Shown: positions 4,005 through 20,160 of the stretch, piece after piece
Numbering within the stretch: position 1 is the stretch's first letter
Layout: each line of letters opens with the position of its first letter
From: Dyadobacter sp.
GTDB taxonomy: Bacteria > Bacteroidota > Bacteroidia > Cytophagales > Spirosomataceae
Length of the DNA stretch: 64,000 bases
Reading direction: 5' to 3'
NCBI RefSeq assembly: GCF_017744695.1
Contig: NZ_JAGIAS010000006.1
Location: forward strand, 124,001-188,000
The notes under the pieces: generated by a model
Seen by the model: only the letters and a program-made list of their open reading frames with translations
Databases searched by the model: none
Told to the model about the DNA's origin: nothing
Position numbers and translations under genes: made by a program

Positions 4005-5438
4005 TTAACCTTTCACATTATTAGTCCCATACTTCCCACGCTGCGGCCGTGAGAGCATTGCGGTAGCTTCCTTGTCATTAATGAATTGCTCCTTCTTTGG
4101 ATCCCATTTCACTTTACGACCGAGTTTCATAGCCGTGTGCGCGAGGAGGCACGCGGTACATGAGCGGTGCGCGATTTCGGCGTGGCTGATCGTCTGCTTG
4201 CCGCTTTGAATGCTTTCGATCCAGTTTTGGTGCTGCTCGGGGCTTTCGTACAAATGGATTTCATTGTCTCCGATTACCGAGCCAAGAATTTTGGGATCGC
4301 TGGCATAGAATGCTTTGTTTTCTTTTGCATTCTGAGCAGCCACGGGGTCGGAGGCAGTGACGCCCACATTGCCACGCGAGACAAATATCCAGCCATCTGT
4401 TCCTTCGAATTTTACGCCATTAGGATTGGTACCGCCGATTTCCATCACTACACCGTTTTCATATAATGCATTCACCAGAAAGTCGCCATGTACATCCCAG
4501 AGTCCAGAGCCTTTTGCAGGGAATGTCGCTTTGCCTTCTATCTCGATCGGGCCGGTGAGCTCGGTATCCATTCCCCAATGCGCGATATCAATGTGGTGCG
4601 AACCCCAGCCGGTGATCATACCCGCTCCGAATTGTTCGAGACGCAGCCAGCCCGGTCGATCGTTAATATCCGTTTGCGAATGCACGCGGTCCAATGTGTA
4701 ATAAACCTCCGGTGTTGAGCCGAGCCACATGTCGTAGTTCAGGTTAGACGGAACAGGCATTTGCGCCGTATTCCCGCCCGCAGGATCACCCGGAAGACCC
4801 ACGTATACTTTTTTGAGCTTTCCAATGCGGCCGTTGCGTACCAGCTCGCAGGTTCGCTTGAATTGCGGCCACGGGTTCATCGATCGCTGCTGGCTGCCCA
4901 ATTGGAAAATAACCCCCTTCTTCTTGATCATATCGGCCATCTGGCGGCCTTCGCGGATCGTGAGTGAGGTAGGTTTTTGCATATAAATATGCTTGCCTGC
5001 AACAGCTGCCTCCATGGCTGGCTGCGCATGCCAGTGGTCGGGCGTACTGATGATAACAGCGTCGATATCTTTACGACCCAGAATTTCGTGGTAATCGTCG
5101 TATGTTTTTACTTCAAGGTATTTCTCTTTTCCTGTGCGCTCGACATATTTCCGCTCAATCCATTCCTTACCTTTCGCGAGGCGGTTTTTATCCAGATCAG
5201 CTACGGCGATCACGTGTGCTGCTTCATTTTTAATTACTTCCGGCAAGTCGTGCGTGGAACCGATGCGGCCAAAGCCGATCTGCCCGATATTGATTTTGTT
5301 GCTCGGCGCATTCTTACCGAAAACAGTCGATGGTACGATGGTAGGGAACATCGATGCTGCGATAATGCCGGCTGTACCTTTTGCGGTGGCTTTCAGGAAT
5401 GACCTTCTGTCCTGATTTTGCTCCTTCTGATCTTTCAT
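4005..5438 (-). CDS. Gfo/Idh/MocA family oxidoreductase with Tat signal
   Basis: A 477-residue protein starting at MKDQKEQNQ. A longer reading frame extends to 5579, but the twin-arginine signal DRRSFLK (residues ~10-16) and hydrophobic stretch fit only the 5438 start. After the signal comes a Rossmann NAD(P)-binding domain (INIGQIGFGRIG). The cofactor/catalytic Lys motif reads MQKPTSLTIREG, with Q in place of the usual E of EKP. The substrate domain carries GWGSHHIDIAHWGMD. Exported members of this family act on glycosides or sugar acids in the periplasm. It is last of four co-directional genes, 41 bp after the ThuA-like gene, suggesting a role in the same sugar-acid pathway. The substrate is unknown. 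Confidence 0.85.
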   Translation of the reverse strand: MKDQKEQNQDRRSFLKATAKGTAGIIAASMFPTIVPSTVFGKNAPSNKINIGQIGFGRIGSTHDLPEVIKNEAAHVIAVADLDKNRLAKGKEWIERKYVERTGKEKYLEVKTYDDYHEILGRKDIDAVIISTPDHWHAQPAMEAAVAGKHIYMQKPTSLTIREGRQMADMIKKKGVIFQLGSQQRSMNPWPQFKRTCELVRNGRIGKLKKVYVGLPGDPAGGNTAQMPVPSNLNYDMWLGSTPEVYYTLDRVHSQTDINDRPGWLRLEQFGAGMITGWGSHHIDIAHWGMDTELTGPIEIEGKATFPAKGSGLWDVHGDFLVNALYENGVVMEIGGTNPNGVKFEGTDGWIFVSRGNVGVTASDPVAAQNAKENKAFYASDPKILGSVIGDNEIHLYESPEQHQNWIESIQSGKQTISHAEIAHRSCTACLLAHTAMKLGRKVKWDPKKEQFINDKEATAMLSRPQRGKYGTNNVKG

Positions 5439-5479
5439 GTTGTATGCAGATTTAGGATTGATGACTGATATGTTCGTGG

Positions 5480-6337
5480 TTATTTGGAGAGGGCGGGAAT
5501 GGCGTTTCGCACCGGATCCTGCGGGCTGGTCGCGTAGGCCTTGCTGTAATTTCTGGGCTTCTGTGGCCCGATCGCCCACTCAATGGCGCCGAGAATGTGC
5601 TTGCGCAAGTCTTCTTTCTCATAATCTTCCTTCTGATGCCCGAGTGAGGTGTAGAAGGAGCGGCCGCCATCGTATTCATGCCACCAGACTGACGGAAATA
5701 CATTTCCAAAGGTATCCAGCGCTTTTCCGGCAGGTTTTTGAATGGTTGAATGATCATTTACAGCCAGTACAGTCAGATTTACGCCGAGTTCTTTGATAAA
5801 ATAAAATTCGTCGATTTGCCGGGGCCATTCCTTGCCAAGATGGGCGAGCGATGGGTTCTTAGGATCCAGGATCTTAACTGAAAAACTCTGGCCCGGCTCA
5901 TGCCAGAAGAACGTTCCACCCAGGAGGTCCTTGAACCACCGCCATTTACGCTCCGTACCGGACGCCGAATGCAGTCCTACGAAGTTGCCGCCTGCCTGAA
6001 TATAACGCATGAGCGCAACCCGCTGCGCATCGGTGTCGAAAACGTCGTTGTTGGTATTCGAGAAAACCAGGCAATCGTACTGTTTAAGATTTTCATCGGT
6101 AAACTTCGACGGATCGGAAGTGGTGTCTACGGCAAATCCATTCTGTTTTCCCAGAGCGAGTATCGCTACTTTGGAATTGGCGATGTTGTCATGCACATAG
6201 CCCTTTCCGTTTTTGGTGTAAACCAGGATCTTGACCTTGTTCCATTTGATTTTCTGCGCGTGTGTGCTTATGGGCCCGCCCAGCCCGAAGAATAGCAGCC
6301 AGAGCAGGCATGTTGTCAGGATGTTTTGTTTTTTCAT
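5480..6337 (-). CDS. ThuA-like domain protein, secreted
   Basis: A 285-residue protein with an N-terminal signal peptide (hydrophobic core ~8-25, ending STHAQ). The rest is a ThuA/type-1 glutamine-amidotransferase-like fold: KILVYTKNGKGYVHDN, then YDCLVFSNTNNDVF, then a GGNFVGLHSASGTERKWRWFKDLLGG block and the C-terminal PSVWWHEYDGGRSFYTSLGHQKEDY. The last block is the hallmark of ThuA proteins tied to trehalose and other glycoside use. No classical Cys nucleophile is visible. It lies 24 bp after the SDR gene and 41 bp before the Gfo/Idh/MocA gene. ThuA and Gfo/Idh/MocA pairs recur in Bacteroidota keto-glycoside loci, and a similar partnership is inferred here. Confidence 0.8.
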   Translation of the reverse strand: MKKQNILTTCLLWLLFFGLGGPISTHAQKIKWNKVKILVYTKNGKGYVHDNIANSKVAILALGKQNGFAVDTTSDPSKFTDENLKQYDCLVFSNTNNDVFDTDAQRVALMRYIQAGGNFVGLHSASGTERKWRWFKDLLGGTFFWHEPGQSFSVKILDPKNPSLAHLGKEWPRQIDEFYFIKELGVNLTVLAVNDHSTIQKPAGKALDTFGNVFPSVWWHEYDGGRSFYTSLGHQKEDYEKEDLRKHILGAIEWAIGPQKPRNYSKAYATSPQDPVRNAIPALSK

Positions 6338-6361
6338 TGATTACGATAAGAAAAGGTTTGA

Positions 6362-7153
6362 CTAAAATCCGATAGAATTACCACCGTCCACAGGCAATGA
6401 AACGCCGGTAATGAATTTTGCGGCTTCCGAGCTAAGGAATACGGCTGTCCAGCCGATGTCGTCGGGTTTGCCCCAGGTGCCCATCGGCGTGCGGTCCATG
6501 GCTTTGTCACGCCGTGAAGGGTCGCCGTTCATGGCGGTAAGCATCATAGGCGTTTCAATGAAACCAGGTGCGATCGCGTTGACACGGACATTATAGGGCG
6601 AAAATTCGGTGGTTAACGCCTTCACCATCCCGCCAACGGCCGATTTTGACGCTGTATAAGCGACCACGCGGTCGATACCATACAATGCGGCCATGGAGGT
6701 GATCATCAGGATAGACCCGCGCTTGCGCTCCACCATTCGCTTTCCGCATTCGCGCGTAATCGAGAAAACAGCGTGAAGGTTGGTCTGGATCACGCGGTCG
6801 AAATCCTCGTCGGAGACTTCTACCGCATGTTTTTTCATGTTAATACCGGCATTGTTGACCAGGATATCGATTTCGCCTACCTGGGTTTCTATGGCTTCGA
6901 TTAGTCCCGGCAGCGATTTAAGGTCCGTAATATCGTTGACAAAATAGCGGGCATCCGTGCCGAGCTTAGGTAATGCTTCTTTTAAAACATCCTCGCGCCT
7001 GCCCGTTATCACCAGCTGTGCGCCCGCCTGTGCGAGGCATTGGGCAATGTAAAATCCAATGCCGCTTCCACCGCCTGTTACGAGGGCAATTTTGCCTCTC
7101 AGCGAGAAGACATTCAGTGATGGTATTGTTTCGATTTGACTATGAGTAGACAT
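6362..7153 (-). CDS. SDR family oxidoreductase, probable D-mannonate/gluconate-type dehydrogenase
   Basis: A 263-residue classical short-chain dehydrogenase. It has the NAD(P) motif TGGGSGIG, the NNAGIN motif, catalytic Ser in MITSMAALYG, catalytic YTASK, and the C-terminal PVDGGNSIGF. The closest named types are gluconate 5-dehydrogenase and KduD-like enzymes. It lies 24 bp after uxuA. I infer that it interconverts fructuronate and mannonate, the step next to mannonate dehydratase and the job of UxuB in enterobacteria. No UxuB homologue is present, so the SDR is a reasonable substitute. Substrate specificity cannot be read from sequence alone. Confidence 0.85.
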   Translation of the reverse strand: MSTHSQIETIPSLNVFSLRGKIALVTGGGSGIGFYIAQCLAQAGAQLVITGRREDVLKEALPKLGTDARYFVNDITDLKSLPGLIEAIETQVGEIDILVNNAGINMKKHAVEVSDEDFDRVIQTNLHAVFSITRECGKRMVERKRGSILMITSMAALYGIDRVVAYTASKSAVGGMVKALTTEFSPYNVRVNAIAPGFIETPMMLTAMNGDPSRRDKAMDRTPMGTWGKPDDIGWTAVFLSSEAAKFITGVSLPVDGGNSIGF

Positions 7154-7177
7154 TATTTTTAAATCTATAAACCTTGA

Positions 7178-8383
7178 TTAATATTCCCGGACTGACTGTG
7201 CGATGCTCATTTCCAGTCCTCTCAGCTCGGCCAGTGCTTTGAGCCGGCCGATCATGGAATAGCCGGGATAAGTCTTTTTGTGCAAATCGTCCAGCATTTG
7301 GAATCCGTGATCGGGACGCATCGGCAGCAGATTGTCGGCATAATGTGCTGCACCGCGGCGCAGCTCTTCCTGGTGTAGTGCTTTAACAACCTCGTACATA
7401 TCCACATCGCCATCCAGATGCGGTGCCTCGTGGAAATTGCGGTTGTCGTCTGCTTCTCGTTTGGTTGTTCTGAGATGGACGAAATGGATGCGGTCGCCTA
7501 GTCGCTGGATGATGCCCGACAGATCATTATCTGCCCGAACGCCCAGTGAGCCGGTGCAGAAGGTGATGCCATTGGCGCGTACATTACACGCATTCATGAG
7601 TTGCGTGAGATCGGCCTCTGTGCTCACCACCCGCGGCAAGCCTAGTAGCGGTCGCGGCGGATCGTCGGGGTGAATGCAGAGGTTGATGCCCAGCTCCTGT
7701 GCCAAAGGTGCTACCTGGCGGATAAAGTAGTAGAGGTTTTCGCGTAGCTCCTGGTCCCCGATTGCTGCATATGCATTGAGCAACTCCTGGAAATTCGCGA
7801 GTTCAAACGCCTCTTCCGAACCCGGCAGGCCCAATAAAACTGTGTTTGTCAATCCCTGGATATCTGCGGGCGACATGCTTTGCAATTTCAGCCTGGCCGA
7901 TTCGCGTACCTGCTCGTCGTAATCCGCTTCTGCACCCGGACGTTGGAGAATGTAGAGGTCGAACAATGCAAAATCCTCCCAGACAAACCGCAGCGTCTTA
8001 TGCCCCTCGGCGAATGTGTAGGAGAGGTCGGTACGTGACCAGTCGAGTACCGGCATGAAATTGTAGCACACCGTCCGGATTCCCTCCTCAGCCAGATTGC
8101 GCAACGACTGCTTATAGTTTTCGATGTATTGCTCGCGAGAAGGCAGGCCCTTCTTGATATGCTCGTGTACCGGGAGGCTCTCCACGACCAACCATTTCAG
8201 GGAAGTATACCGTTCATTACCTGCTTCAACCTGCGAGATCCTTTCCCGGATCGCATCTTTCGTCCAGACATCGCCAACCGGTACCTGGTGCAGCGCGGTA
8301 ACGACGCCACAGCATCCCGCCTGACGGATGTCCATCAGCGAAACCGGGTCATTCGGGCCGAACCAGCGCATTGTTTGAATCAT
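7178..8383 (-). CDS. uxuA: Mannonate dehydratase
   Basis: A 401-residue protein with the UxuA start MIQTMRWFGPNDPVSL and the conserved block AGCCGVVTALHQVPVGDVW. Further family blocks are NLCIHPDDPPRPLLGLPRVV, the GITFCTGSLG/NDL segment, IHFVHLRTTKRE, and LPMRPDHGFQMLDD. It dehydrates D-mannonate to 2-keto-3-deoxy-D-gluconate in the cytosolic hexuronate pathway. The His, Asp and Cys metal-site residues in these blocks are present and the length is normal. It is first of a four-gene leftward operon, divergent from a LacI repressor gene, with a consensus LacI-family operator 44-57 bp upstream of its start. Confidence 0.93.
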   Translation of the reverse strand: MIQTMRWFGPNDPVSLMDIRQAGCCGVVTALHQVPVGDVWTKDAIRERISQVEAGNERYTSLKWLVVESLPVHEHIKKGLPSREQYIENYKQSLRNLAEEGIRTVCYNFMPVLDWSRTDLSYTFAEGHKTLRFVWEDFALFDLYILQRPGAEADYDEQVRESARLKLQSMSPADIQGLTNTVLLGLPGSEEAFELANFQELLNAYAAIGDQELRENLYYFIRQVAPLAQELGINLCIHPDDPPRPLLGLPRVVSTEADLTQLMNACNVRANGITFCTGSLGVRADNDLSGIIQRLGDRIHFVHLRTTKREADDNRNFHEAPHLDGDVDMYEVVKALHQEELRRGAAHYADNLLPMRPDHGFQMLDDLHKKTYPGYSMIGRLKALAELRGLEMSIAQSVREY

Positions 8384-8440: not shown

Positions 8441-8552
8441 TTAACTTGCCGTAAATTTTGGCGACAGGGATTTCTGTTCAAAAAAGCCGCCAAGTTTAAA
8501 GCATACACAACAGACGGCGAATGCCCCTGTGATCCCTTACAAGAAAAGAATA

Positions 8553-9581
8553 ATGGAAAAGGAAATTACCATTTACGATCTCGCAAAAATACTCGCATTG
8601 TCGCCTGCAACCGTGAGTAGGGCGCTAAACGACCATCCCGCAATTAACGCGAAAACCAAGGTACTCATTGCGGAGAAGGCGGCCGAACTGGGGTACCGTT
8701 CCAATACCTTTGCGAGTCATTTGAGAACCCGTAAGACTAACACGCTGGGGGTCATTGTACCCAGGCTGAACAGTAATTTTATGTCGACGGTATTGGCCGG
8801 AATGGAGGAAGTAGCTAACAATTTCGGGTATAACTTGTTGATCAGCCAATCGCTGGAATCTGAATTGAAGGAGCAAGCCAACGCCAAAACGATGTTTAAC
8901 AGCCGTGTGGACGGTCTGCTGGTTTCGGTTGCCTACGACACCGATTCTTTTGAACATTTCTCCACTTTCATTAACCGCAATGTTCCGGTCTTGTTCTTTG
9001 ACCGCGTCATGGATCATCCGCAATGCGGCGCGGTGATCATCGATAACGAGCAGGCAGGCTACGACGCAACACGCCACTTGCTGGACCAAGGCTGCCGCAG
9101 GATCATGCACGTGACCGGAGACCTGCGAAGAAATGTGTATGCCGACCGTATGGAAGGTTTCAAGCGTGCAGTTGCCGGGCAGAATCTGCCGCTGGATAAT
9201 CGTCTTGTGATATCGACCGATCTGAGTCAGGAAGCGGGCAGGGCCATAGCAGAGCAAATTGATCAAACGGAAGAAAAGCCGGATGGCCTTTTTATCACCA
9301 ACGACCTTTGTGCGGCGATCTGCATGCAGGTTTTGAAGGAAAAAGGATATGCAATCCCGGAGGACATCGCCATCGTAGGTTTCAACAACGATCCCGTTTC
9401 GCAGGTAGTATCCCCGCAACTTACCACTGTTTTTTATCCCGGCTATCAGATGGGCAAGACGGCTATGACTACCATCATCGGCCAATTAAATGGTACCAAG
9501 CCGATGGATCATTCGGAACCACTTATCCTGCGCTCGGAACTGATTATCAGAAGGTCATCGATTCGGTTGGAGAAGTCGTAA
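8553..9581 (+). CDS. LacI family transcriptional regulator of the uxu operon
   Basis: A 342-residue regulator. The start MEKEITIYDLAK at 8553 is preferred over an upstream in-frame GTG (8529) because the HTH begins at once (IYDLAKILALSPATVSRALNDHPAINAKTK) with the hinge helix in TRKTNTLGVIVP. Residues ~60-340 are a periplasmic-binding-protein-like sensor (DGLFITNDLCAAICMQVLKEKGYAIPEDIAIVGFNNDP). It is divergent from uxuA and has a perfect family operator in the shared region. The likely effector is a hexuronate-pathway sugar acid, which is an inference from context. Confidence 0.92.
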   Translation: MEKEITIYDLAKILALSPATVSRALNDHPAINAKTKVLIAEKAAELGYRSNTFASHLRTRKTNTLGVIVPRLNSNFMSTVLAGMEEVANNFGYNLLISQSLESELKEQANAKTMFNSRVDGLLVSVAYDTDSFEHFSTFINRNVPVLFFDRVMDHPQCGAVIIDNEQAGYDATRHLLDQGCRRIMHVTGDLRRNVYADRMEGFKRAVAGQNLPLDNRLVISTDLSQEAGRAIAEQIDQTEEKPDGLFITNDLCAAICMQVLKEKGYAIPEDIAIVGFNNDPVSQVVSPQLTTVFYPGYQMGKTAMTTIIGQLNGTKPMDHSEPLILRSELIIRRSSIRLEKS

Positions 9582-9652: not shown

Positions 9653-10207
9653 ATGGAAGCTGTGGCTGAAAGACTCTATTCACTGGAAGAATACTTCGCC
9701 TTTTGTGAAACTCATGAAGGTAGGTTTGAATTCGTCAACGGAGAAATCATAGAGATGGCAGGAGAAACAACTACTTCCAATCGCATTGCTGGCAATATAC
9801 ATTTCCAACTGCGAAGCATTTTGCAGAATGGGGCGTATGAATTCTATCAAAATGATGTAAAATTAAAGCTAGAAGACGGAAAGGTTGTGCGTCTTCCCGA
9901 TTTCATGATTTGCGAAGAAAAGGGTGATGCCGTTCGTTACACCACTTTTCCACTTCTGATCGTCGAAGTGCTGTCCGAAAGTACAGCCAAGACCGATCGC
10001 GTTGAAAAGCTCCGTGAGTACTCTTCTGATCCGTCGCTGCAATATTATCTCATAATCGAGCAGACGAAATGCCAAATCGAGATGTATGTCCGTGATGGCG
10101 AACGTTGGAATATTGAGTTTTACGACAAAATGGAAGATGTGGTTAAGCTACCGTATTTCAATGCAGAACTTTCACTAAGTGTAGTTTACCGAAAGGTCAA
10201 ATTCTAG
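9653..10207 (+). CDS. Uma2 family (DUF820) restriction-endonuclease-fold protein
   Basis: A 184-residue single-domain protein with the Uma2 layout: YSLEEYFAFCETHEGRFEFVNGEIIEMAG, then SNRIAGNIHFQLRSIL, then the PD-(D/E)xK core VRLPDFMICEE...FPLLIVEVLSEST, and later REYSSDPSLQYYLIIEQTKCQIEMY. The Asp in LPDF and Glu in VEVLS are the expected nuclease-site residues. The family is common in cyanobacteria and Bacteroidota. Its physiological role is unknown; some members are thought to belong to mobile or defence contexts, but nothing mobile is adjacent. Its stop overlaps that of the convergent DUF3748-like gene by four bases. Confidence 0.85.
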   Translation: MEAVAERLYSLEEYFAFCETHEGRFEFVNGEIIEMAGETTTSNRIAGNIHFQLRSILQNGAYEFYQNDVKLKLEDGKVVRLPDFMICEEKGDAVRYTTFPLLIVEVLSESTAKTDRVEKLREYSSDPSLQYYLIIEQTKCQIEMYVRDGERWNIEFYDKMEDVVKLPYFNAELSLSVVYRKVKF

Positions 10208-11574
10208 TTTAGGTTTAGCACAAACACCTGCTGCACGCCCTTCCCTGAATCGTTCTTAACCAACCGGTTAAACGCCAAAACCTTTCCATCCGCCGACCAG
10301 ACCAGATTACTTGGAGCAGCCTCCGATGGCTCGGTTAGTATCTGAATCCTTTCTTTAAACGGAGAGTCGCCAACTTCACAAAGCACAATACTCCCCTCAT
10401 AAACGTAAGTCACGTGCTTCCCATCGGGATGCCAGCGGAGGTTGCCCGTAATGTCGGAAGTGTATTCTGTGACCTGGCGCGGTTTGCCGCCGTTTGGCGA
10501 AATGGTGAAAATCTGATTGATACCCTTCGCATCTTTCGCCAGAAATGCCAGCTGGCTGCCGTCAGGTGACGAGCGAACAATGCCTGTGCAGCCCGGATGT
10601 GGAGTGTTTGCAGTAAATGTAAGGCGACGCTGAACTGCACCTTTCGGCGGCATCGGGAAGTCGGTGTTTGTCCCTTCCAGCGGCCCAAGGGGGCCGGGCT
10701 GGGTAATGTCTTCGGGAATATCGACGACGAAGACTTCCGGCGTATCATGGCCATTTTTGTCCTTTACAATGCCGAGAAAAGCCCTGGCTATCTGGCGGGT
10801 GCCATTTTGTGTAATATAGCCATTCGTTCCTACCCAGCTGTCGCTTGCAGCATGACTGATTTCATCGCTTCCCGGAGCAGGGTTAGGTACGACGCGTACG
10901 ACCAATGCGCTGAACCATTCTCCCGATACATTTTCGGTATTTTCATCCACTTTAACGGCCCTGATTTTTTTAGAAACACCGATCGTCCGCAGGTTACGTT
11001 TCTGGCCGGTCGAGTCTTCCAGCGCTTTCAGGATAGCGTCATTGTAAGTGTATCCGATCCATTGTCCGTCGCCACTCCACTCGTGCCGGTGGGTACCCCC
11101 GCGTAACGCACCGGGCGTGAATGGGGGCGTCACATCACGCGCATCCATGTACACGGGTACATTCGGACGGGCGTCGTGGATAATCACACCCGTCCGGCGC
11201 CATTGCTGGTAGGGGTTCTCCTTGGTGCTGGTAGAAAGGCCGTGAATGAAAACAACGGCGCTTTCCTTAGGGCCGTAACTCACTGCCCCGGCACCCGGGC
11301 CCCAAACGGCATTGTCTTTAATATCAAAAAGAACTTGTTTCTCTCCCGTTTCAATGTTCACACGCTCGATCCGCGCTGATTCTGCGATGCCGCCATCGTC
11401 GGTCCTGGTGTCGTACACGAGCCATTGCCCGTTGGGCGAAAAATTGTCGTTATTGTCCAGGTCGTGGTGGTAGGTCAGGTCGTGCGTGATCTGTTTTTCT
11501 GCTGTGTCTGTCTGGCAGGATTGCATGCTCAAAAATGTTAGGAACGTTAAAACCGGGATAGAAACAAGTCTCAT
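10204..11574 (-). CDS. DUF3748/YidR-like beta-propeller lipoprotein
   Basis: A 456-residue lipoprotein with lipobox SMQSC (Cys20). The mature part contains TolB/PD40-like propeller strands: NFSPNGQWLVYDTRTDDGG near the start, HEWSGDGQWIGYTYND in the middle, SSPDGSQLAFLAKDAKGINQIFTISPNGGKPRQVTEY and WSADGKVLAFNRLVKN near the end. The overall order and the GTHRHEW/GCTGIVRSSPDGS blocks match the DUF3748 (E. coli YidR) family, whose function is unknown. It is last in a five-gene leftward operon, starting 8 bp after the stop of the 739-residue gene, which implies a shared role with the deacetylase and the two propeller-helical proteins. Confidence 0.75.
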   Translation of the reverse strand: MRLVSIPVLTFLTFLSMQSCQTDTAEKQITHDLTYHHDLDNNDNFSPNGQWLVYDTRTDDGGIAESARIERVNIETGEKQVLFDIKDNAVWGPGAGAVSYGPKESAVVFIHGLSTSTKENPYQQWRRTGVIIHDARPNVPVYMDARDVTPPFTPGALRGGTHRHEWSGDGQWIGYTYNDAILKALEDSTGQKRNLRTIGVSKKIRAVKVDENTENVSGEWFSALVVRVVPNPAPGSDEISHAASDSWVGTNGYITQNGTRQIARAFLGIVKDKNGHDTPEVFVVDIPEDITQPGPLGPLEGTNTDFPMPPKGAVQRRLTFTANTPHPGCTGIVRSSPDGSQLAFLAKDAKGINQIFTISPNGGKPRQVTEYTSDITGNLRWHPDGKHVTYVYEGSIVLCEVGDSPFKERIQILTEPSEAAPSNLVWSADGKVLAFNRLVKNDSGKGVQQVFVLNLN

Positions 11575-11582
11575 GGGGAAAT

Positions 11583-13802
11583 CTACTTTTGAGGGCCGGT
11601 AATAATGCCGAGATAGCGGCCCATCCAGTAGGGGAGAAGCCAGATATCGCCGGCACTATGCTCACCGGAGCCATTGCCGCCGCTCCGGTCGAGGCTGAAC
11701 ATATTACCATTATGTCGTTGAATAGGACGTTCATCCGGCGGTAGCACCTCTTTGGTGGTTTGCTTGCGGAAATTAGGTTCAAGCTTTTCAATGTCCTTGC
11801 GGTGACTATTTTTGATTACCCAGTCGATCAGGTCCATCGGATGCTCCTGCAAATACCACACCGATTCGTTCAAGTCAAAATCTTTGGTGCCGGTTAAGGC
11901 CGTGAAGATATTCCAGGCACCTTCCTTTTCGGGACGTTCCGCTTGCCAGTGGTCGATAATCTGCTTTTTGTAGCTGGTTTTAAGCGTATCGTTGAAAGCA
12001 TAGCGGTAAAGTCCCCAGTAGCCGAGGAAGTACATTTCGTCGTCGGAGTGGTTCCAGCCGTCGGACATATGTTTCGCATGTTCGTCGGCATCCTCCGGTG
12101 CGCGGCCGATAATGCTCATAGGTCGCATCATGTTCTCGAAATAACCGTGTTTGGTCATCAGCTCGAATGCTTTCGCCTTGTACTTCTCCTTTTTGGTAAA
12201 ATGGTAAGCGGTTTGCAGCATAGCCACGATGTTGGACGAATTCAGCTTGCGGTCGCCGACATTGGTAGGGAATGCATTCACATAGTCGGGATGCCATTTA
12301 CCCCACATGGTAGGTTTGCCATCGTAGTCGATCAGGTACATGTCGTTTTTCACAATGTGCGACATGAGGGTATCAATGAGCATAACGGCCTGCTTCTTGA
12401 TTTTCGGGTCGTCGATCAGTTCCGCAGCTGCACCGAATGCGAAAATATGACCGATCACTTCATCGCTGCTGGTGGTTGACTTCCAGTCCCATTCCTTTTC
12501 GGGCGAATGTTGCCAGCGCTCGACATCGTGGAGTTCATTGATATGCCCCGCACGCTCATAGGAACGGGCCGGAAATCCTGCCACAGGGTTCACCGTGTAC
12601 AAGCGCTCCATAGCGTCCATCGACTCGCGGCAATTTTGCAGCGCATCGGGATCTTTGGTGACCGCATACCGGAAAATCTGGCCACCGAGGTACATGGATG
12701 TCCAAAGGCCGTCGTTGTCCGAGTCTTCAGTGTAGCCCGTCGACAAATCACCGTGATTCAGCCCGGTAAGTTGCGAGTTGAACCCGTTCCGGATGTGGCG
12801 CAACCTTACCTGCTGGTCAAATAGCTTAGCCTTCTCTTCCAAAGTCATCGATTTGAACTGGATTTGTCCCAAACCTTTGGTGGTTAAAACCAATACCGAG
12901 TTCTTCGGCCCTTTTTCTATATCCAAAACTGCATTGCCGGGCAGCCAGCGCTCACCGAAATAATAGTCGAATTTGCCGTCGGCGCGCAATGCGAATGCAC
13001 CCATATCGGAGCCAAACCATACTTTACCGTTCACCTCTTTCACAGCCGTAATCCTTGTTGCAGGCAATTTTCGGTTGATGTTGCCGGTTTGCTTTCCGGT
13101 TGGAATATCCAAAGAAAGGTAACCATCCAATGTTCCAATGATGATTTTGGTCTCTTTCGAGGCAATGTCAAATGCTGTGAAATCGGTGCCTGTGAGCACT
13201 TTGGTCAGCTTTTTGTCCTGAGCGCCCAGTTTATAAAGCGATTTGCTCCCCAAAACCCAGAACTGGTTTGCATTACCCTGAAATGCCAATCCGATCACAG
13301 AATCGTCCGGTAATTTGCCATTCCAGAGGCTTTTCGAGTCTTTAATCAATTCGAGCGAAGCGCCATCGGAAACGAGGAACGTAAAATCCTTGCCGCCTGC
13401 GAGCAAGCTGGCTTTGGGAAGGTTATGTTTTGAAAACAGCGTTCCGGCCCACGCATTGCTGAATACAACCTGGTCGGTGAGGTAAACAAGTTGATTTTCG
13501 TAAGAAACAAGGTTGCTGATGTTCTTGTCCTTCATGTAGCGGTAGTTCTGGTCGGGAACGACCTTGCCCGGGTACAGAAATTGCCCGGCGGAAGTGTGCC
13601 TGAGCCCTTCTTTCGCAAGCATTTGAATAATGCCATTGCGATCGGCGGCAACCTGTTGGAGTGAGCTCTGGGTGGTATCAGCATAATATTTGATGCTGAA
13701 ATCCTGCAAATAGGGCTTGTCTTTATGCACAGGCTGTACCTGCGCACGTGTGAACGTCGTGCCCATCAGTAAGAGGAGGGATAACGAAATGTGCTTTTGC
13801 AT
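11583..13802 (-). CDS. Exported propeller + alpha-helical domain protein, paralogue B
   Basis: A 739-residue protein with a signal peptide (residues 1-20, ending TRA-Q). Residues ~40-315 contain repeated propeller-type strands (GIIQMLAKEGL, NQFWVLGSKSLYKL, KVWFGSDMGAFAL). Residues ~330-739 look like an all-helical barrel. Four blocks are shared with the product of 14880-17123: DNDGLWT (362-368), TSSDE (444-448), DYDGKPTMW (492-500) and WLLPYWMGRYLG (721-732). The acidic clusters could form a metal or catalytic site, as in alpha/alpha-barrel glycan-active enzymes, but no known family was recognised. It starts 13 bp after the deacetylase stop. Unlike paralogue A, it lacks a lipobox and should be soluble in the periplasm or secreted. 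Confidence 0.7.
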   Translation of the reverse strand: MQKHISLSLLLLMGTTFTRAQVQPVHKDKPYLQDFSIKYYADTTQSSLQQVAADRNGIIQMLAKEGLRHTSAGQFLYPGKVVPDQNYRYMKDKNISNLVSYENQLVYLTDQVVFSNAWAGTLFSKHNLPKASLLAGGKDFTFLVSDGASLELIKDSKSLWNGKLPDDSVIGLAFQGNANQFWVLGSKSLYKLGAQDKKLTKVLTGTDFTAFDIASKETKIIIGTLDGYLSLDIPTGKQTGNINRKLPATRITAVKEVNGKVWFGSDMGAFALRADGKFDYYFGERWLPGNAVLDIEKGPKNSVLVLTTKGLGQIQFKSMTLEEKAKLFDQQVRLRHIRNGFNSQLTGLNHGDLSTGYTEDSDNDGLWTSMYLGGQIFRYAVTKDPDALQNCRESMDAMERLYTVNPVAGFPARSYERAGHINELHDVERWQHSPEKEWDWKSTTSSDEVIGHIFAFGAAAELIDDPKIKKQAVMLIDTLMSHIVKNDMYLIDYDGKPTMWGKWHPDYVNAFPTNVGDRKLNSSNIVAMLQTAYHFTKKEKYKAKAFELMTKHGYFENMMRPMSIIGRAPEDADEHAKHMSDGWNHSDDEMYFLGYWGLYRYAFNDTLKTSYKKQIIDHWQAERPEKEGAWNIFTALTGTKDFDLNESVWYLQEHPMDLIDWVIKNSHRKDIEKLEPNFRKQTTKEVLPPDERPIQRHNGNMFSLDRSGGNGSGEHSAGDIWLLPYWMGRYLGIITGPQK

Positions 13803-13815
13803 TGTATTGAGTTGG

Positions 13816-14865
13816 TTATTTAACTTTTTTCCTTCTTTCCATCACCTCTTTCCAGGTAGTCAGGATAATGCCTTCCGATCGGATGAATGCTTTCAAATCG
13901 GGATCTAGCATCGAAAGCATATCGGCATAGCGCGAGCCGCCGGAAGCGCTGATGTATTTGAAATCGTCCGTTATGTCGCTGCTGTGGACGATCATCATCG
14001 CCACGCCGGGTTGCATTTTGCGGATCGTTTCGATGAATTTCTGGGCTTTGTATTTGCCCCATTGCTCGGGCGTGACGTCGCCGCCCTCCGGCTTCCAGTC
14101 GCCGCTGATCGTGTGGAGGTCGTCGAGTACGGGCAGGCCGGCTGCCCATATTTTTTGCCCGAATTCCGCCGAGCGTTTGGTGATTTCAGGTTCGGGGAGC
14201 TCCATTCCGTCCTTCCATTTCCCTTCGGCTTTCAGCTTTTTGATCAATGGATTGTTCAGGCATTCTTTCAAAAGCCGATTATTACCGCCCGGGAACATCA
14301 CCGGAATGCCAAATTCAGCCCCCACTTTGATATATCTTTCCAGATAAGGAATATGCGCGAATAGTGTGCCCATGTGGGAATCCATATGGGTAGGTTTCAA
14401 ACCGAGCTTCAATGCCCGGCTTAGTTGAGCGCGTATTTCCTGTTCCACCACATCCGGGCTGGCATGCTTGATCACCTCTTCTACTTCGTGCCACATACAG
14501 CCCTCGTCGTCTACCAACCCTTCTGAATGCGCAATGCCGTTCAGCGGTGGCCAGCGGTAATCTTGCCATTCCGAAGTGAGTGTCAAATGCAGGCCGGCAT
14601 CCATCCCCGGGTTTGCTATGGCAAATTTGGCAAAGCTGGCTGCCCAGGGGCATGGCATCATTATGCTGCACGAGGTGGCAACGCCGTTCTGGATCGATTT
14701 TTTGGCCCCTTCATTCGAGTAACGGGACATTCCGGCGTCGTCTACGTGGAAAATAATGACCTTCGTGCCCTTTGGCCAGCCGAGTTTTTCGGCATAGGTC
14801 TGTTGTGCTGATGTTTCTTGCATAACCAGTAAAAGCAGGTTGATGAACAGAAGATAGGTCTTCAT
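13816..14865 (-). CDS. ChbG/YdjC-HpnK family carbohydrate deacetylase, exported
   Basis: A 349-residue protein from the ATG at 14865; a longer frame reaching 14916 would overlap the upstream gene. Residues 1-20 are a signal peptide. Expected metal and catalytic residues of YdjC-type deacetylases are visible: HVDDAG (His40, Asp42, Asp43), GLHLTLTSEW (His93) and THMDSHMG (His160, His164). Known ChbG enzymes remove the N-acetyl group from chitobiose-type sugars; HpnK acts in hopanoid synthesis. A signal peptide is unusual relative to cytosolic ChbG and points to a periplasmic substrate. It lies between the two paralogous propeller-helical genes (gaps of 14 and 13 bp), so it probably acts on the same glycan. 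Confidence 0.82.
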   Translation of the reverse strand: MKTYLLFINLLLLVMQETSAQQTYAEKLGWPKGTKVIIFHVDDAGMSRYSNEGAKKSIQNGVATSCSIMMPCPWAASFAKFAIANPGMDAGLHLTLTSEWQDYRWPPLNGIAHSEGLVDDEGCMWHEVEEVIKHASPDVVEQEIRAQLSRALKLGLKPTHMDSHMGTLFAHIPYLERYIKVGAEFGIPVMFPGGNNRLLKECLNNPLIKKLKAEGKWKDGMELPEPEITKRSAEFGQKIWAAGLPVLDDLHTISGDWKPEGGDVTPEQWGKYKAQKFIETIRKMQPGVAMMIVHSSDITDDFKYISASGGSRYADMLSMLDPDLKAFIRSEGIILTTWKEVMERRKKVK

Positions 14866-14879
14866 ATCGAATGTAGTTT

Positions 14880-17123
14880 CTATTTTGAAATCATTCCCAA
14901 ATACCGGCCCATCCAATAAGGCAGGAGCCAGAAAACCGGCTCACGTTCTACCTGCGGATTACCCCCCGATACTGTCCAGGGGTTCTTGTCCCAACGGACG
15001 GTGAGCCTTATGCTGGCGGGCTGCAGTTCATTTATTTGTTCGTCTTCGAGAACCGGTGTACGCACTATCTGAATATCCTCCCTCTTCCGGTGATCGATCG
15101 GCCAGTCCACCAGATCCAGCGGCGTATCGATCAGAAAATCCACGGAGTTTTTTAGCTCAACTTTCTTATCCAGGCATTCGCTATAAATAAAGTTAATCAG
15201 CGGGTTATGGTCACCCTTGCGTTTCGCGAACCATTCTTCCAGGTGGTTTTTGTAAAATTTCAACCGCTCGGGATCCTGCTCGCAACGGATCAGGATCGGG
15301 TAGAGATATGCTTGCAGTACCACATCGAAATAGATGAACCAGGCGGGATTTTGTTTCGTCACCTCTTTCATATTGTCGAGATAATGCTCGTTTTCGATCA
15401 ACCGCAGGTATTCGTTTTGATACCTGGCATTGCCCGTCATGAAATGCGCCAGTTTCAGGAATGCGAGCATTTCCATCGAATTCTGGTTGCGGTCGGGCAG
15501 CCATTCCGGATCGCGGTTCAGTTGGTCCGGCGACCACACCGACCAACGCGTGGGCTTGCCGTCCACATCCGCGAAATTCAGGTTATGCTGCATCAGGTAA
15601 TCGACAATCCTGCCTACGTGCGCGGCGATGACTTTCTTTTCTGCGGCGTCTGCCACGAGCGTATAGTAATGGTAATAGCCAAACATATGCCCGCACATTT
15701 CATCGCTGCTTGTATCGCCTTTCCACAGCCACTTTTTGTCGGCCGACAAATGCCAACGCGTTTCTAGGGGTTTGAACCGCGGTTCTTTCACGAGCTCGTC
15801 CGCTCGCTCGCGTTCCGTGTACGTGCGGTTGCCGTCGTGCATGTGCGTCCAGGTAGCGGGTATGATCGTACGTGCGAAGAAGCCGTTGGTGCCCGTCACT
15901 TCCTGCAACGATTTCAGAAAGCCGAATGCTTTTTTAGCATTCTCCTTTGCAATAGGGTCCTTTGTAGCGGCATAGCGGAAGCTTTCCATCGCCAGGTAGT
16001 TGCCGGTAAATTCGCCGTCGTTGTCGTCATCTTCCGGTTCCCAGGTTGTCGTATCGCCGGGAACGCGCAAATGTGCCTGCCCCGCGATCCACGGCGCTCG
16101 TATATGTCGCTTCATTAGCACATCATAAAAGAATGTGTTCTTGGACGCCAGCGTCATATCCCGCTTTTTAATGGCACTCACACCCCGCGGCGTAGCTATC
16201 CATGCATTGCCTTCTTTGTCAAATGCAATATCATTGACCTGATCATCCAGCAGCCATCTTCTCGAAAACAGCAACGAACGCCCACCATCTTTCCGGAAAC
16301 GTACCACGCCTGTTTGCGTGCCGACCCACATCGAACTGTCGGGCGCAAGACGCACCGCCGTGATGTACGTGGAAGGAATGCCGTCGGTTGTCCGCAGCTC
16401 CGATTCCTTTTTGCCATTGTCCTGAACGGTAATCCCACCGAGGCCTCCGATCCAAAGCTTTCCGTCGTAATGGTATGCCAAACCTTTGGTATAGGCAGCT
16501 ATCAGCCCGTCGGTTTTGTAGGTATGTGTTAATTCCGAGGGTGTCCAGTGATAAAGTCCTACGTCGGAGGCTATCCATAATCCGTCGTTCCGGTCGCTGA
16601 TCACATCGCGGACAGATTTTGCTATGGCTGCTTTTTGTAAAGTAAAACCACTCGCATTACCCGTCCAAAAACCATTGGGGCCGATAGCGTGGATCTTGCC
16701 CGCTGCCGTGCAAATCGCAGAAATAGGACCAATCGGCCCATTCGCCTTTGTAATTGTGCCGTCCTGGCATTGGTATAGACCGTTCCAGGTGCCCAGCCAT
16801 ATAATGCCGGCAGAATCCTGCGCGAGGGCGTACGACGGCCCACTTTCGTGCCCGTCGAGCATGGGTACCCAATTACGGTCATTCTTCATTTTTCGAAAAA
16901 CGCCTTTTGCCGTGGCCGCCCAAATATCGCCGTTGCGATCGGGTAAAACGGCCCGCACATCGTTGCCTTCCATGGGAAAAGCCTCATGATATTCCTGAAT
17001 GAACGTCTCGTCCTGGTAAAAGGACGGATCGTTATCAACCGTTCTATCGTTCCGGCAAGACCAGAGCAAGGGCATGAGGCCGCAAAGCAGCCGGGCAATC
17101 AGTCGTTTTTCCGGATGTCGCAT
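14880..17123 (-). CDS. Propeller + alpha-helical domain lipoprotein, paralogue A
   Basis: A 747-residue lipoprotein with lipobox LLWSC (Cys23). Residues ~50-325 hold seven or so propeller repeats of the two-component-regulator type (GDIWAATAKGVF, GIIWLGTWNGLY, DGLWIASDVGLYHW, GKLWIGGLGGI, SSMWVGTQTGV, GNAWIATPRGV). Residues ~340-747 are helical. Signature blocks shared with paralogue B are DNDGEFT (367-373), TSSDE (471-475), DVDGKPTRW (519-527) and WLLPYWMGRYLG (732-743). Its ATG overlaps the stop of the kinase/HAD gene by one base (TGATG), a sign of translational coupling. The helical domain may bind or cleave a glycan, with the propeller as a recognition module. No catalytic function is established. 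Confidence 0.72.
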   Translation of the reverse strand: MRHPEKRLIARLLCGLMPLLWSCRNDRTVDNDPSFYQDETFIQEYHEAFPMEGNDVRAVLPDRNGDIWAATAKGVFRKMKNDRNWVPMLDGHESGPSYALAQDSAGIIWLGTWNGLYQCQDGTITKANGPIGPISAICTAAGKIHAIGPNGFWTGNASGFTLQKAAIAKSVRDVISDRNDGLWIASDVGLYHWTPSELTHTYKTDGLIAAYTKGLAYHYDGKLWIGGLGGITVQDNGKKESELRTTDGIPSTYITAVRLAPDSSMWVGTQTGVVRFRKDGGRSLLFSRRWLLDDQVNDIAFDKEGNAWIATPRGVSAIKKRDMTLASKNTFFYDVLMKRHIRAPWIAGQAHLRVPGDTTTWEPEDDDNDGEFTGNYLAMESFRYAATKDPIAKENAKKAFGFLKSLQEVTGTNGFFARTIIPATWTHMHDGNRTYTERERADELVKEPRFKPLETRWHLSADKKWLWKGDTSSDEMCGHMFGYYHYYTLVADAAEKKVIAAHVGRIVDYLMQHNLNFADVDGKPTRWSVWSPDQLNRDPEWLPDRNQNSMEMLAFLKLAHFMTGNARYQNEYLRLIENEHYLDNMKEVTKQNPAWFIYFDVVLQAYLYPILIRCEQDPERLKFYKNHLEEWFAKRKGDHNPLINFIYSECLDKKVELKNSVDFLIDTPLDLVDWPIDHRKREDIQIVRTPVLEDEQINELQPASIRLTVRWDKNPWTVSGGNPQVEREPVFWLLPYWMGRYLGMISK

Positions 17124-19048
17124 CAGGCTTCAGCGTAATTTTCGCTTTCCTGAAACAGCAGGCTGATCAGTTTTTTATGTTGCGAGAAATCGGGGATCAG
17201 GAACTGGGCACCTGCGCGTACGAGTCGCGGGCGCTTGGCCGGGTTATGTCCGAAGCGCTGCACTTCGTTGCTGGTAATACCCACTGAAATACCTCCGGCA
17301 CGACGCCCCTCGCGGATTTCGTCAGGACCGTCACCGAATACCGCCAGTTCCTTCCCTTGCAGATTGTTGTCGCGGATGATCTTCTCGATCACCATTTTCT
17401 TCGAAAACTTGGTGTAATCGCGCAATGCACCATAAATACCCCCATCGAATAAGTCGGCATAACCGAGCATCCGGGCTTCGTTTTTTACATCTTCGGCATC
17501 GGTACCACTCGCGAGGTACATCGTTACGCCGCGCTCTTTGAGCTGTTTCAGGAATTCAACGGCGCCTTTCAGGGTGTAATCTTCCTGGCCGAGCTCCCCG
17601 TTGGCGAGTTTTTCCATGCGTTTGTTCACCATTTCCATCAGGCCATCGTTGTAAATTTCCTTGTACTGGAATTTGTCCAGGATCTGCTCTTCGGGAACAA
17701 AGCCGAATTCGCGCACAAGATTCACCAAGCCTTCCATTTGGTAAATGGTCTGGATACCCGTCGTTTTGTGTATGAATGCTTTACATTCTTCCTGCACTTT
17801 ATGGAATGTACCCGCGTCGATGGTATCATATTGCTTGCCGAGAATGGATTTCATCATCACCGGCTCCATAATTTCTTCCCATCCCTGCCGGAGCGAGCTA
17901 ATCGTACCGTCGTGATCGAAAACGGCATAGCGTATATGTCCGAGTTTGTCGAGGATCTCGGGTACACATATTTCGAACTCCGTTTCGGGATAGTAAACCG
18001 CGGCACGCTCGTTTTCGGCCAGGTCAGCATTGTAAATGTAGTCGGGGTCTTTGGCTACCACGGCGATCTCTTCGCCGGTCGCCGTACCGGTTGTAAACAG
18101 CTTTTGTACCGTTACTGCCGCGGCAAAATTGCCGAAGAGCGCCGCTTCCGCCGGAGATAACCCTGCTGCCAGACAAAGCGTAATGGCGCTGATCGCCGTA
18201 TCTCCCGCACCCACGGTATCGAGCTTGCCTTTCAGCTGAATGCCGGGTACCTCGTGGTAGCCGGCTTCGTCGAATGCGATAATGCCGCGTTCTCCGCAAG
18301 TCACGAATACCGGCTTTCGGTACCGGGCAAATATTTCCGCACCGTAACCTTTTACATCGCTCACCGGTACGTTTTCACCCGGCGCCACGTCCAACCCGTT
18401 CAAAGAAGCAATTTCGCGGTCGTTGCATTTCAGGCAGGTGTTTTTGAAGCTGTCGTTGAAATGCCGCGAATCCAGCATCACGATTTTGTCGGGATATTGA
18501 TTGAAAAGGGCATTCACATCGTCGATGAACGAAGTGTTGGTAATGCTTCCGGTTACCTGTTGATTAAAAATCAATGCATCACATTCCTGCAATGCTTTTT
18601 CAAGCGCAGCCACGAGTTGCCGGTCGGTCTCGATACTCCTTATATTATATACACCGAAATCGATGCGCGGCTCTTCCTGGCCCTCTACCAGCCGTTTGAG
18701 GTAACTATATGTATTGAAATTTTCTTTCTGGACAATGAATGCGCTCGTGTCTGCACCAAGCTGTTGGAGCTGTGCCATGAGTTCCCGCCCCTGCATATCG
18801 TCGCCTACGGCACCAATGACCCTGATCCCCGCAGGCTTCAGGGCGGCAAGGTTGGCCACGACATTCCCGGCGCCTCCCGGCGTATAGTAATGGCGGGCAA
18901 CGGCCTGGGCCTGCAAACCGGTTTCAATGGAAACTTCAGAAGTGCGGTCGTCCATGACCCAGTAGGAGTCGAGACAGAAGTCGCCATATACAGCGACCTG
19001 GGCGGCGGAGATTTTCTCCAGTATCTGGTTGATGCGGCTTTGATCCAT
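17123..19048 (-). CDS. Fused PfkB-type sugar kinase and HAD phosphatase
   Basis: A 641-residue cytosolic protein from the ATG at 19048 (an in-frame TTG lies two codons upstream). Residues ~10-325 form a ribokinase/PfkB domain resembling the heptose-kinase part of RfaE/HldE: YGDFCLDSYWVMDD, TPGGAGNVVANLAAL, and the anion-hole motif DTVGAGDT (catalytic Asp283). Residues ~370-640 form a HAD hydrolase: FDHDGT (Asp378 nucleophile, Asp380 acid), YLASGTD and VFGDGPDEIREGRRAGG. HldE instead carries a nucleotidyltransferase, and the phosphatase partner GmhB is separate, so this kinase-HAD pairing is unusual. As first gene of the operon it may process a sugar released by the exported proteins. The substrate is unknown. 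Confidence 0.82.
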   Translation of the reverse strand: MDQSRINQILEKISAAQVAVYGDFCLDSYWVMDDRTSEVSIETGLQAQAVARHYYTPGGAGNVVANLAALKPAGIRVIGAVGDDMQGRELMAQLQQLGADTSAFIVQKENFNTYSYLKRLVEGQEEPRIDFGVYNIRSIETDRQLVAALEKALQECDALIFNQQVTGSITNTSFIDDVNALFNQYPDKIVMLDSRHFNDSFKNTCLKCNDREIASLNGLDVAPGENVPVSDVKGYGAEIFARYRKPVFVTCGERGIIAFDEAGYHEVPGIQLKGKLDTVGAGDTAISAITLCLAAGLSPAEAALFGNFAAAVTVQKLFTTGTATGEEIAVVAKDPDYIYNADLAENERAAVYYPETEFEICVPEILDKLGHIRYAVFDHDGTISSLRQGWEEIMEPVMMKSILGKQYDTIDAGTFHKVQEECKAFIHKTTGIQTIYQMEGLVNLVREFGFVPEEQILDKFQYKEIYNDGLMEMVNKRMEKLANGELGQEDYTLKGAVEFLKQLKERGVTMYLASGTDAEDVKNEARMLGYADLFDGGIYGALRDYTKFSKKMVIEKIIRDNNLQGKELAVFGDGPDEIREGRRAGGISVGITSNEVQRFGHNPAKRPRLVRAGAQFLIPDFSQHKKLISLLFQESENYAEA

Positions 19049-19620
19049 GAGCAAAGGTTGGTCTGGATTTAGGATAAAATGGATATGGATATTGAGCTGT
19101 TTTTGGGTAATACGGCCGATGCAGGAAGGAGGGCTATCGCGTCGCCGGCGATTTGCGGCAAATGTTACAAAATTGTTAAATACGGCAGTGGGAAAACGAT
19201 GCCCGAACTACCCGTTGTTTCTAAGTATTTTTCACTAAGAACTAACTGTAAATGAGGAAATATGTAATAAATGATAAGTTACTATTATGTTATGATTAAA
19301 TCGTACAATGGTGCGCAAAATGACGATATTTTTACGCAGTTTGCGATTCAAATTTTAGATTCAGCGGTGTAGATTTATCAAACAATTACAAATACGCCGC
19401 GCAATACAAAACATCACCGAATGTTTCGAAGGCAGAATTTTCCGCTGCCGGGGTGATGTTGGAAACAACTTTATTTTAATACCTGACTGATTACCTATTA
19501 ATGTTAAAAAGAATTTGATGCCGAATAATAAATAGGATCAAACCAAGAATAAAAGTTTTTTAATTGATAAAATAATCTCTTTACCTAGTCCCCTTTTCTA
19601 TAAAGCTAAACTGTACGACT
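19049..19620. other. 572-bp intergenic region between the kinase/HAD operon and the sigma factor gene
   Basis: An AT-rich non-coding stretch between divergent genes, so it must hold both promoters. No exact TAnnTTTG promoter was found on either strand. One structured segment stands out: CATCACC (19412-19418) pairs with GGTGATG (19452-19458), with GGCAG (19431-19435) pairing with CTGCC (19445-19449) inside. This could fold as a nested hairpin in the sigma factor leader. No credible ORF was seen. Confidence 0.5.
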
Positions 19621-20160
19621 GTGGCCTATCCCGACGAAAATACCCTGATCAGAGTGACGCAAGGCGACGAAGCAGCCTTTGCAGAGTTGTATAATCACTA
19701 CAAAACACCTGCACTGCGGTTTACGGTTTCACTGCTCAAAGACGAGGAAGAAGCTGAGAACATGGTTCAGGACGTGTTTATCAAGATTTGGGTGAGGCGC
19801 ACCCAGATCAAGCCGGACTATAATTTCAACTCATACCTGTTCACCTGCCTGCGCAATATGGCGTTCGACCATTTTAAAAAGCTTGAAAAGAGCGAGCAGT
19901 TGCGTAAGCATTATATGGAAGCGATCCGCGCTGCCGGGGAGGACGAGAGGGAAGAAGCCGAAAGAAGGCTGTCTGTCGTGCAGGCGGCTGTCGAATCGTT
20001 GTCGATCAAGCGCCGGCAGATTTTAAAACTGAATATTGAAGAAGGGAAATCCTATCAGGAAATAGCGGAGTTTTTGAGAATATCCAAAAATACAGTGAAG
20101 AACCAATTGGTGAAAGCAAAACAGATCCTGCGCGAAAAAGTAGATCTGGCAACGATATAG
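19621..20160 (+). CDS. ECF RNA polymerase sigma-70 factor, Bacteroidota family
   Basis: A 179-residue sigma factor starting at GTG (no nearby ATG fits). Region 2 covers ALRFTVSLLKDEEEAENMVQDVFIKIWVRR; region 4 is the HTH SYQEIAEFLRISKNTVKNQLVKAKQILRE. Such factors in Bacteroidota usually pair with a FecR-type anti-sigma gene and a TonB receptor. Here the next gene is an unrelated convergent lipoprotein, so it is an orphan ECF factor. It has its own terminator at 20202-20237 and an unusually long upstream region. Its regulon is unknown. Confidence 0.88.
   Translation: MAYPDENTLIRVTQGDEAAFAELYNHYKTPALRFTVSLLKDEEEAENMVQDVFIKIWVRRTQIKPDYNFNSYLFTCLRNMAFDHFKKLEKSEQLRKHYMEAIRAAGEDEREEAERRLSVVQAAVESLSIKRRQILKLNIEEGKSYQEIAEFLRISKNTVKNQLVKAKQILREKVDLATI

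Follow-up and report, generated by a model that had tools for sequence, protein, structure and literature searches.

The window considered here is a 64,000-nucleotide stretch of DNA from Dyadobacter sp. (NCBI RefSeq assembly GCF_017744695.1, contig NZ_JAGIAS010000006.1, positions 124,001 to 188,000 of the forward strand), and the system in question is a leftward operon of five genes, designated K, A, Y, B and D, which lies beside a divergent gene for an extracytoplasmic function (ECF) sigma factor. The features of the locus are as follows, the lengths of the five products being given with stop codons excluded.

17126..19048, minus strand: K, 641 amino acids, a cytosolic PfkB sugar kinase fused to a HAD phosphatase (open reading frame list and Pfam)
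14883..17123, minus strand: A, 747 amino acids, a lipobox-like start followed by a Reg_prop propeller and a helical domain (approximately residues 322-747)
13819..14865, minus strand: Y, 349 amino acids from its ATG, an exported YdjC/ChbG-type protein (Pfam and residue alignment)
11586..13802, minus strand: B, 739 amino acids, an exported paralogue of A with propeller and helical domain
10207..11574, minus strand: D, 456 amino acids, a DUF3748 protein with TolB-like propeller repeats and, in the window, a lipobox-like start
19621..20160, plus strand: the divergent ECF sigma factor gene, of the Bacteroidetes family TIGR02985
19312..19347, minus strand: a 36-bp imperfect palindrome in the region between the ECF gene and K, a candidate operator or promoter element

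With stop codons included, the open reading frame coordinates gave spacings of -1, 14, 13 and 8 bp in the order K, A, Y, B, D, exactly as described in an initial annotation of this DNA made from the sequence alone. Its other descriptive claims also held: A and B proved to be paralogues (30% identity over 553 aligned positions, E 4e-64) flanking the YdjC gene, Pfam supported a kinase-phosphatase for K and a DUF3748-like propeller protein for D, and motif reading of the N-termini by eye, without a predictor, found Y (as claimed) and B to be Sec signal peptide-like, and D (as claimed) and A to be lipobox-like. The divergent ECF gene and the conserved 36-bp element, both absent from that account, are parts of the locus.

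Fifty named loci were retrieved by protein A, which is therefore present in all of them by construction, and 23 of these belonged to Dyadobacter, the source of the nearest relatives in the A-based search. Their gene orders were K-A-Y-B-D in nine, K-A-Y-BNR_2-B-D in four, K-A-Y-BNR_2-B in one, K-A-BNR_2-B-D in eight and K-A-B-D in one, such that K, A and B were present in all 23, D in 22 and Y in 14. Since it recurs in relatives, the five-gene arrangement is not a chance one. In the stretches fetched from other genera, the four Emticicia loci read A-Y-BNR_2-B-D without K, a GH92 gene standing just before A in three of them (one assigned by Pfam, the others by cluster), the six Runella loci read A-B, and those of Arsenicibacter and Rhabdobacter read A-Y-BNR_2-B with additional copies of B. 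SusC and an ECF gene were located on the opposite side in all four Emticicia loci and in five of those from Runella; Rhabdobacter possessed SusC/SusD and no ECF match, and Arsenicibacter an ECF gene and no SusC/SusD cluster. It was apparent from these loci that the site separating A from B is one at which BNR_2 and Y have each been acquired and lost.

Among 150 genomes of the same family, A was matched at more than 1000 bits in 45, a figure used in place of the wider count of 131, which includes propeller-only matches, and full-length K was found in 32 (37 matches, five of them to the kinase half only). Using H to denote any A/B-type gene, at least 31 of the 32 full-length copies of K had an H or Y gene on the same strand no more than 6 kb away, and at least 42 of 46 copies of Y at 60% identity or more lay near H or K. 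By way of control, none of the other 89 listed YdjC rows was near H or K among the places listed on the same contigs, and the smallest distance was 178 kb. Across the phylum, K was present in three of 198 genomes, the present one included, and A-type matches were also returned from metagenome-assembled genomes of Hydrogenedentes and Verrucomicrobia. A second paralogue of YdjC type, with 54% identity to Y, is encoded in the Dyadobacter genome itself (G000:C15:207536-208519); copies of this sort are common throughout the family, and those listed all lay away from the module.

The propeller repeats of A were assigned to Reg_prop by Pfam (8.1e-20), while B gave no Pfam match over cut-off, its Reg_prop score being sub-threshold (0.28); neither protein had a transmembrane or kinase domain that Pfam could match. 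Full-length predicted models were obtained with a predicted local distance difference test score (pLDDT) of 92.3 for A and 85.8 for B. The propeller of A was closest to the periplasmic domains of the hybrid two-component system (HTCS) proteins BT4663, BT4673 and BT3049. Breakdown of heparan, suggested by this propeller likeness alone, was considered and discarded, no sulfatase or polysaccharide lyase family being found among the selected neighbours scanned with Pfam. Identification of A with the type IX secretion system protein PorZ was likewise rejected, the match, whose best stretch fell within the propeller, scoring 37 bits where the cut-off is 260.

In the model of A, the helices of the C-terminal domain are separated on one face by loops of 28, 64, 26, 18, 2 and 63 residues and on the opposite face by turns of 2, 2, 2, 3 and 5 residues, as assigned by hand from the DSSP listing. 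Alternation of long loops with short turns is the pattern of (alpha/alpha)6 domains, whose twelve helices form six hairpins with one long-loop face; the order of helices in the model of A fits this pattern, and a fold of that class is a possibility we infer for the domain. Seven acids (D367, D369, D474, D519, D600, D670 and D683) were invariant in 47 full-length rows, and all seven are placed on the long-loop face of A, each either within a long loop or at the beginning of the next helix; the 48th row, L083, is cut by a contig end and was left out, its inclusion giving four acids and 17 of 25 invariant residues on that face. When a profile of the domain was compared by hhalign with sets of known families, the best of six comparisons was that with nine GH127-type sequences (E 0.0029, 219 columns), those with GH88 (a single sequence), GH92, purple acid phosphatase (PAP), BNR_2 and YdjC sets giving E values of 0.045 to 0.55. 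Against Pfam GH127 itself, residues 358-417 of A scored 14.5 bits, below the cut-off of 24.9 required for membership, and no PHROG family matched the two helical-domain members compared. In the libraries searched, A and B match no named enzyme family over cut-off, and their helical domain is regarded as a candidate new glycosidase or lyase family. The initial annotation had proposed testing the 747- and 739-residue products for an alpha/alpha-barrel glycosidase or lyase site, an idea that gained from the hairpin order in the model of A and nothing from full-length searching with Foldseek and VIA-align, which listed almost only propellers and so assigns the helical domain to no family and excludes none.

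Y is a clear member of the YdjC family (PF04794, E 1.8e-54, 185.9 bits against a cut-off of 29.7). The metal-binding and catalytic residues of kpChbG, given as D10, D11, H61, H125 and H206 in the part of the source drawn on here (PMC9402603), have as their counterparts in Y D42, D43, H93, H164 and H294. All five were identical in 19 of 19 orthologues, the position of H294 having been established through an alignment with PDB 8jqe and not with ChbG itself. That entry, named "YdjC family protein", is the closest solved relative of Y and is presumably CmCBDA, an identity of which no use was made. CmCBDA is described, in the portion of the report consulted, as an N-acetylglucosamine (GlcNAc) deacetylase (PMC8619855).

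K combines PfkB (1.3e-26) and HAD hydrolase (1.2e-12) Pfam domains, and five motif stretches, which we take to be the named PfkB and HAD motifs, were identical in 23 of 23 Dyadobacter orthologues. Its kinase half was closest to the RfaE/HldE kinase domain (1.6e-39), followed by ribokinase (3.4e-19), and at 135.9 bits against the 345-bit cut-off of TIGR02198 it falls outside the HldE heptose-7-phosphate kinases. The frame of a distant K (42%; L140:4874-9554) overlaps a GH78 alpha-L-rhamnosidase gene. D belongs to DUF3748 (PF12566, E 1.7e-38, 131.8 bits against a cut-off of 27), and a profile of D matched only TolB, S9-peptidase and other propeller stretches in the PDB, together with one odd weak match.

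The divergent ECF gene matched TIGR02985 at 126.5 bits against a cut-off of 126.4 and is conserved in position, thereby supplying one of the two types of regulator (ECF or HTCS) expected of a polysaccharide utilisation locus (PUL); ECF control and Reg_prop propellers are both presented as PUL-related features in the part of PMC3243724 used here. Alignment of 24 regions upstream of K revealed a nearly invariant block at 19312-19347 with the core TGCGTAAANNTATCNTCANTTTGCGCA, the palindrome being present as a single copy in its own genome at up to three mismatches. With duplicate loci counted once (L127 = L118, L130 = L117, L125 = L104) and up to four mismatches allowed in the core, the element was found upstream of the ECF gene, and always in the same orientation, in all 30 loci with an ECF protein at least 64% identical, in two of five at 55-57% identity and not in the one at 30%. 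It is conserved over several genera, and occurs with four mismatches in Rhabdobacter locus L056, where no ECF match was found nearby. A reversed-pattern control gave no occurrence in 1.93 Mb, and the fold calculated for the element's DNA was unremarkable (z -1.31). The element may be an operator or a promoter.

As the initial annotation stated, no SusC/SusD pair adjoins the window operon: the open reading frame lists contained no SusC-size frame beside it, and hence it lacks the adjacent pair by which a PUL is recognised. An unlinked pair lies on another contig of the genome, approximately 75% identical to the pair adjacent to A-B in Runella (L149:11663-16699; G000:C2) and with no module genes around it. 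That SusC/SusD has merely been relocated in Dyadobacter, leaving a split PUL, is weakened by the presence of the matching SusD in just 13 of 41 genomes and by its failure to follow A.

Relatives of the same genes do stand beside SusC/SusD. Loci containing relatives of A, B and Y also contained SusC/SusD, ECF sigma factors, GH92, GH20, GH127, BNR_2 sialidase-like proteins and NagX-like glucosamine N-acetyltransferases, SusC being identified by TIGR04056 in one copy, SusD by SusD-like_2 in three, and the remainder by BLAST cluster. In one genome of the same family with Runella-like A-B genes (G031), K, GH92, Y and BNR_2 form a single run on a contig apart from the A-B pair. In another (G004), a single run of GH20, NagX-like (assigned by BLAST cluster, itself without a Pfam match), PAP, GDPD, H (66% to B), BNR_2 and Y faces ECF, SusC, SusD and PhoPQ_related genes. 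A genome of another family (G311) presented SusC, SusD, PhoPQ_related, an unnamed gene, H, NagX-like (NCBIfam 1.2e-55, under cut-off), type I phosphodiesterase, FG-GAP, Y, BNR_2, a further unnamed gene, two PAP genes and GDPD; G529 presented SusC, SusD, PhoPQ_related, BD-FAE, a GDPD-BD-FAE fusion, H and GH127, and G320 SusC, SusD, H, PAP, a DHDPS-family gene, BNR_2 and an SSF transporter. Three Chitinophagaceae loci read SusC-SusD-PAP-A, and SusC-SusD-A was the order in two other loci; in other A loci, such as Terrimonas L067, no SusC/SusD adjoined A. Up to four A/B-type paralogues occurred in one locus (L056). The presence of SusC/SusD, ECF, GH92, GH20, GH127, BNR_2 and NagX-like genes around relatives supports, at the level of context, the breakdown of a glycan containing N-acetylhexosamine (HexNAc), with which the setting of these loci fits. 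As an incidental observation, a family of 776-809 amino acid proteins also adjoins H genes (L105:10402-12729 and L077:19467-21893), the L105 copy having no Pfam match.

The reading preferred, to which a probability of about one half is assigned, makes the operon the enzymatic branch of a PUL-type module for glycan utilisation, one associated with an ECF sigma factor and, in Dyadobacter, separated from its SusC/SusD importer. It draws on the observed gene content and its conservation, export signals read by eye, retained YdjC, PfkB and HAD motifs, the PUL context in relatives, the hairpin order of the model and the conserved element. On this proposal A, probably anchored in the envelope, and the exported B would most likely cleave a HexNAc-containing oligosaccharide by means of the C-terminal six-hairpin (alpha/alpha)6-type domain, held by the propeller, substituents being trimmed by Y or, in relatives, by the BNR_2 sialidase-like protein encoded at the same place. 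D would act as an accessory propeller lipoprotein and K would phosphorylate a released sugar in the cytosol, where its HAD half may take off another phosphate. Such an order of steps, and control of the operon by the ECF factor, are presumptive. An N-acetylated-glycan system built around a deacetylase had been envisaged by the initial annotation; the glycan context of the relatives, the ChbG residues kept in Y, the hairpin order of A and the close association of K with the module favour it in part, while on comparative evidence any deacetylation by Y is an accessory and not the central step.

A number of results weigh against this proposal. Y was missing from nine of the 23 A-retrieved Dyadobacter loci, and in 17 genomes of the genus, the present one included and sampled without the bias of retrieval by A, K was found in all 17, A in 11 (absent from six) and a close Y in four (absent from 13). 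The expectation that the five-gene order would be kept in other Bacteroidota was consequently upheld for the exact order in nine Dyadobacter loci and for parts of it in Emticicia, Runella, Rhabdobacter and Arsenicibacter, and failed for these genomes without A or Y. The helical domain occurred in seven of 395 phylum genomes, again including the present one. Of 41 Dyadobacter genomes, 28 lack the matching SusD, whose distribution does not follow that of A (G130 and G148 contain an orthologue of SusD but none of A, G032 and G076 the reverse). The window operon itself encodes no member of a named glycosidase family. A profile of 34 helical domains matched no PDB sequence, and the hhalign probability against GH127 was just 10.6%. 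Among those 34 members the best Pfam E value for GH26 (0.0088, two members) slightly surpassed that for GH127 (0.018, five members), and hence such weak matches do not single out one family. When all invariant residues were considered, 27 of 41 fell on the long-loop face, which holds 225 of 417 positions, a bias that was not significant (binomial P 0.08).

Three other explanations were weighed. The operon might serve the surface glycan of the cell itself, with K, as HldA-like kinase and phosphatase, making a sugar-phosphate precursor while A, B and D trim or recycle that glycan. The kinase half of K does lie closest to the biosynthetic RfaE/HldE family, and K is present in 17 of 17 genomes of the genus while SusD (13/41), Y (4/17) and A (11/17) vary; the grouping of K with GH92, YdjC and BNR_2 in G031, the overlap of a distant K frame with a GH78 rhamnosidase gene, and the relatives of A and B in SusC/SusD loci nevertheless point to catabolism, and an envelope role is considered doubtful. 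It seems somewhat less probable still that A and B are non-catalytic binders or sensors in which an HTCS-like propeller presents a helical binding domain and signals with the ECF factor. Such a function would suit the kinship of the A propeller with BT4663, BT4673 and BT3049, the likely lipoprotein character of A and the position of the operon beside an ECF gene, but is less easily reconciled with the siting of the invariant acids in long loops or at the helix starts after them, with four paralogues in a single locus, or with the lack of a matched transmembrane or kinase domain. Finally, the genes could be a loose assembly of independently useful functions, A and B having no substrate in common with Y, D and K. 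The coming and going of Y and BNR_2, and the separation of K-GH92-Y-BNR_2 from A-B in G031, are what such an assembly would produce; yet these partners reappear together after the separation and also in other families, none of the other listed YdjC copies lies close by (0/89), and the ECF gene and its cis-element travel with the module, all of which render this explanation very improbable.

A bolder version of the preferred glycan-utilisation reading, tentative and on balance unlikely, is that A and B are founding members of a new glycosidase or lyase family within an undescribed class of PUL attacking phosphate-containing HexNAc glycans, for example teichoic-acid-like polymers. The fuller relatives would then join the new enzyme with GH20, a NagX-like acetyltransferase, an exported YdjC protein, GDPD, PAP and SusC/SusD, all governed by an ECF factor that has a palindromic site to itself, and the Dyadobacter version would be slimmed and equipped with a dedicated kinase-phosphatase. 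No description of the gene set or of the helical family was found in the open-access literature searched. A conserved and unnamed family of large exported proteins in glycan loci offers a direct lead to a new family of carbohydrate-active enzymes, its recurring partners (deacetylase, sialidase-like protein, GH20, GH92 and phosphoesterases) narrow the substrate candidates, and the single-copy palindrome provides an entry point to the regulation of the module by the ECF factor or by a partner regulator.

Elsewhere in the window, a uronate-type-looking set occupies 4005-8383 on the minus strand (oxidoreductase, ThuA-like, SDR and mannonate dehydratase-like, named by eye) beside a divergent LacI regulator assigned by Pfam (8529-9581, plus strand), and a Uma2 gene, also assigned by Pfam (9653-10207), stands between this set and the operon.

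With respect to known systems, the relatives of the window locus share with the ECF-sigma PULs of Bacteroidota an ECF factor, SusC/SusD, exported hydrolases and lipoproteins, whereas the window lacks an adjacent SusC/SusD and its main exported proteins fall into no named enzyme family over cut-off. The helical domain of A bears a weak likeness, by Pfam and hhalign, to the catalytic domain of GH127 beta-L-arabinofuranosidases; A is below every cut-off, however, and carries an N-terminal propeller, the likeness being one of sequence scores. With the periplasmic sensors BT4663, BT4673 and BT3049 A has a Reg_prop propeller in common, but it combines a single propeller with a helical domain, and matching of A and B yielded Reg_prop and sub-threshold hits with no YYY or kinase domain, which places them outside the HTCS. 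The RfaE/HldE heptose-7-phosphate kinase domain is the closest curated kinase model to K, which differs in its score (136 bits against 345) and in having a HAD phosphatase fused in place of the adenylyltransferase. Y belongs to the same Pfam family as the ChbG/YdjC chitooligosaccharide deacetylases (PDB 7vi8, 8jqe and 2e67) and shares the five active-site residues reported for Klebsiella pneumoniae ChbG in the consulted part of PMC9402603, from which it is distinguished by a signal peptide-like start and by its location in a PUL-like operon.

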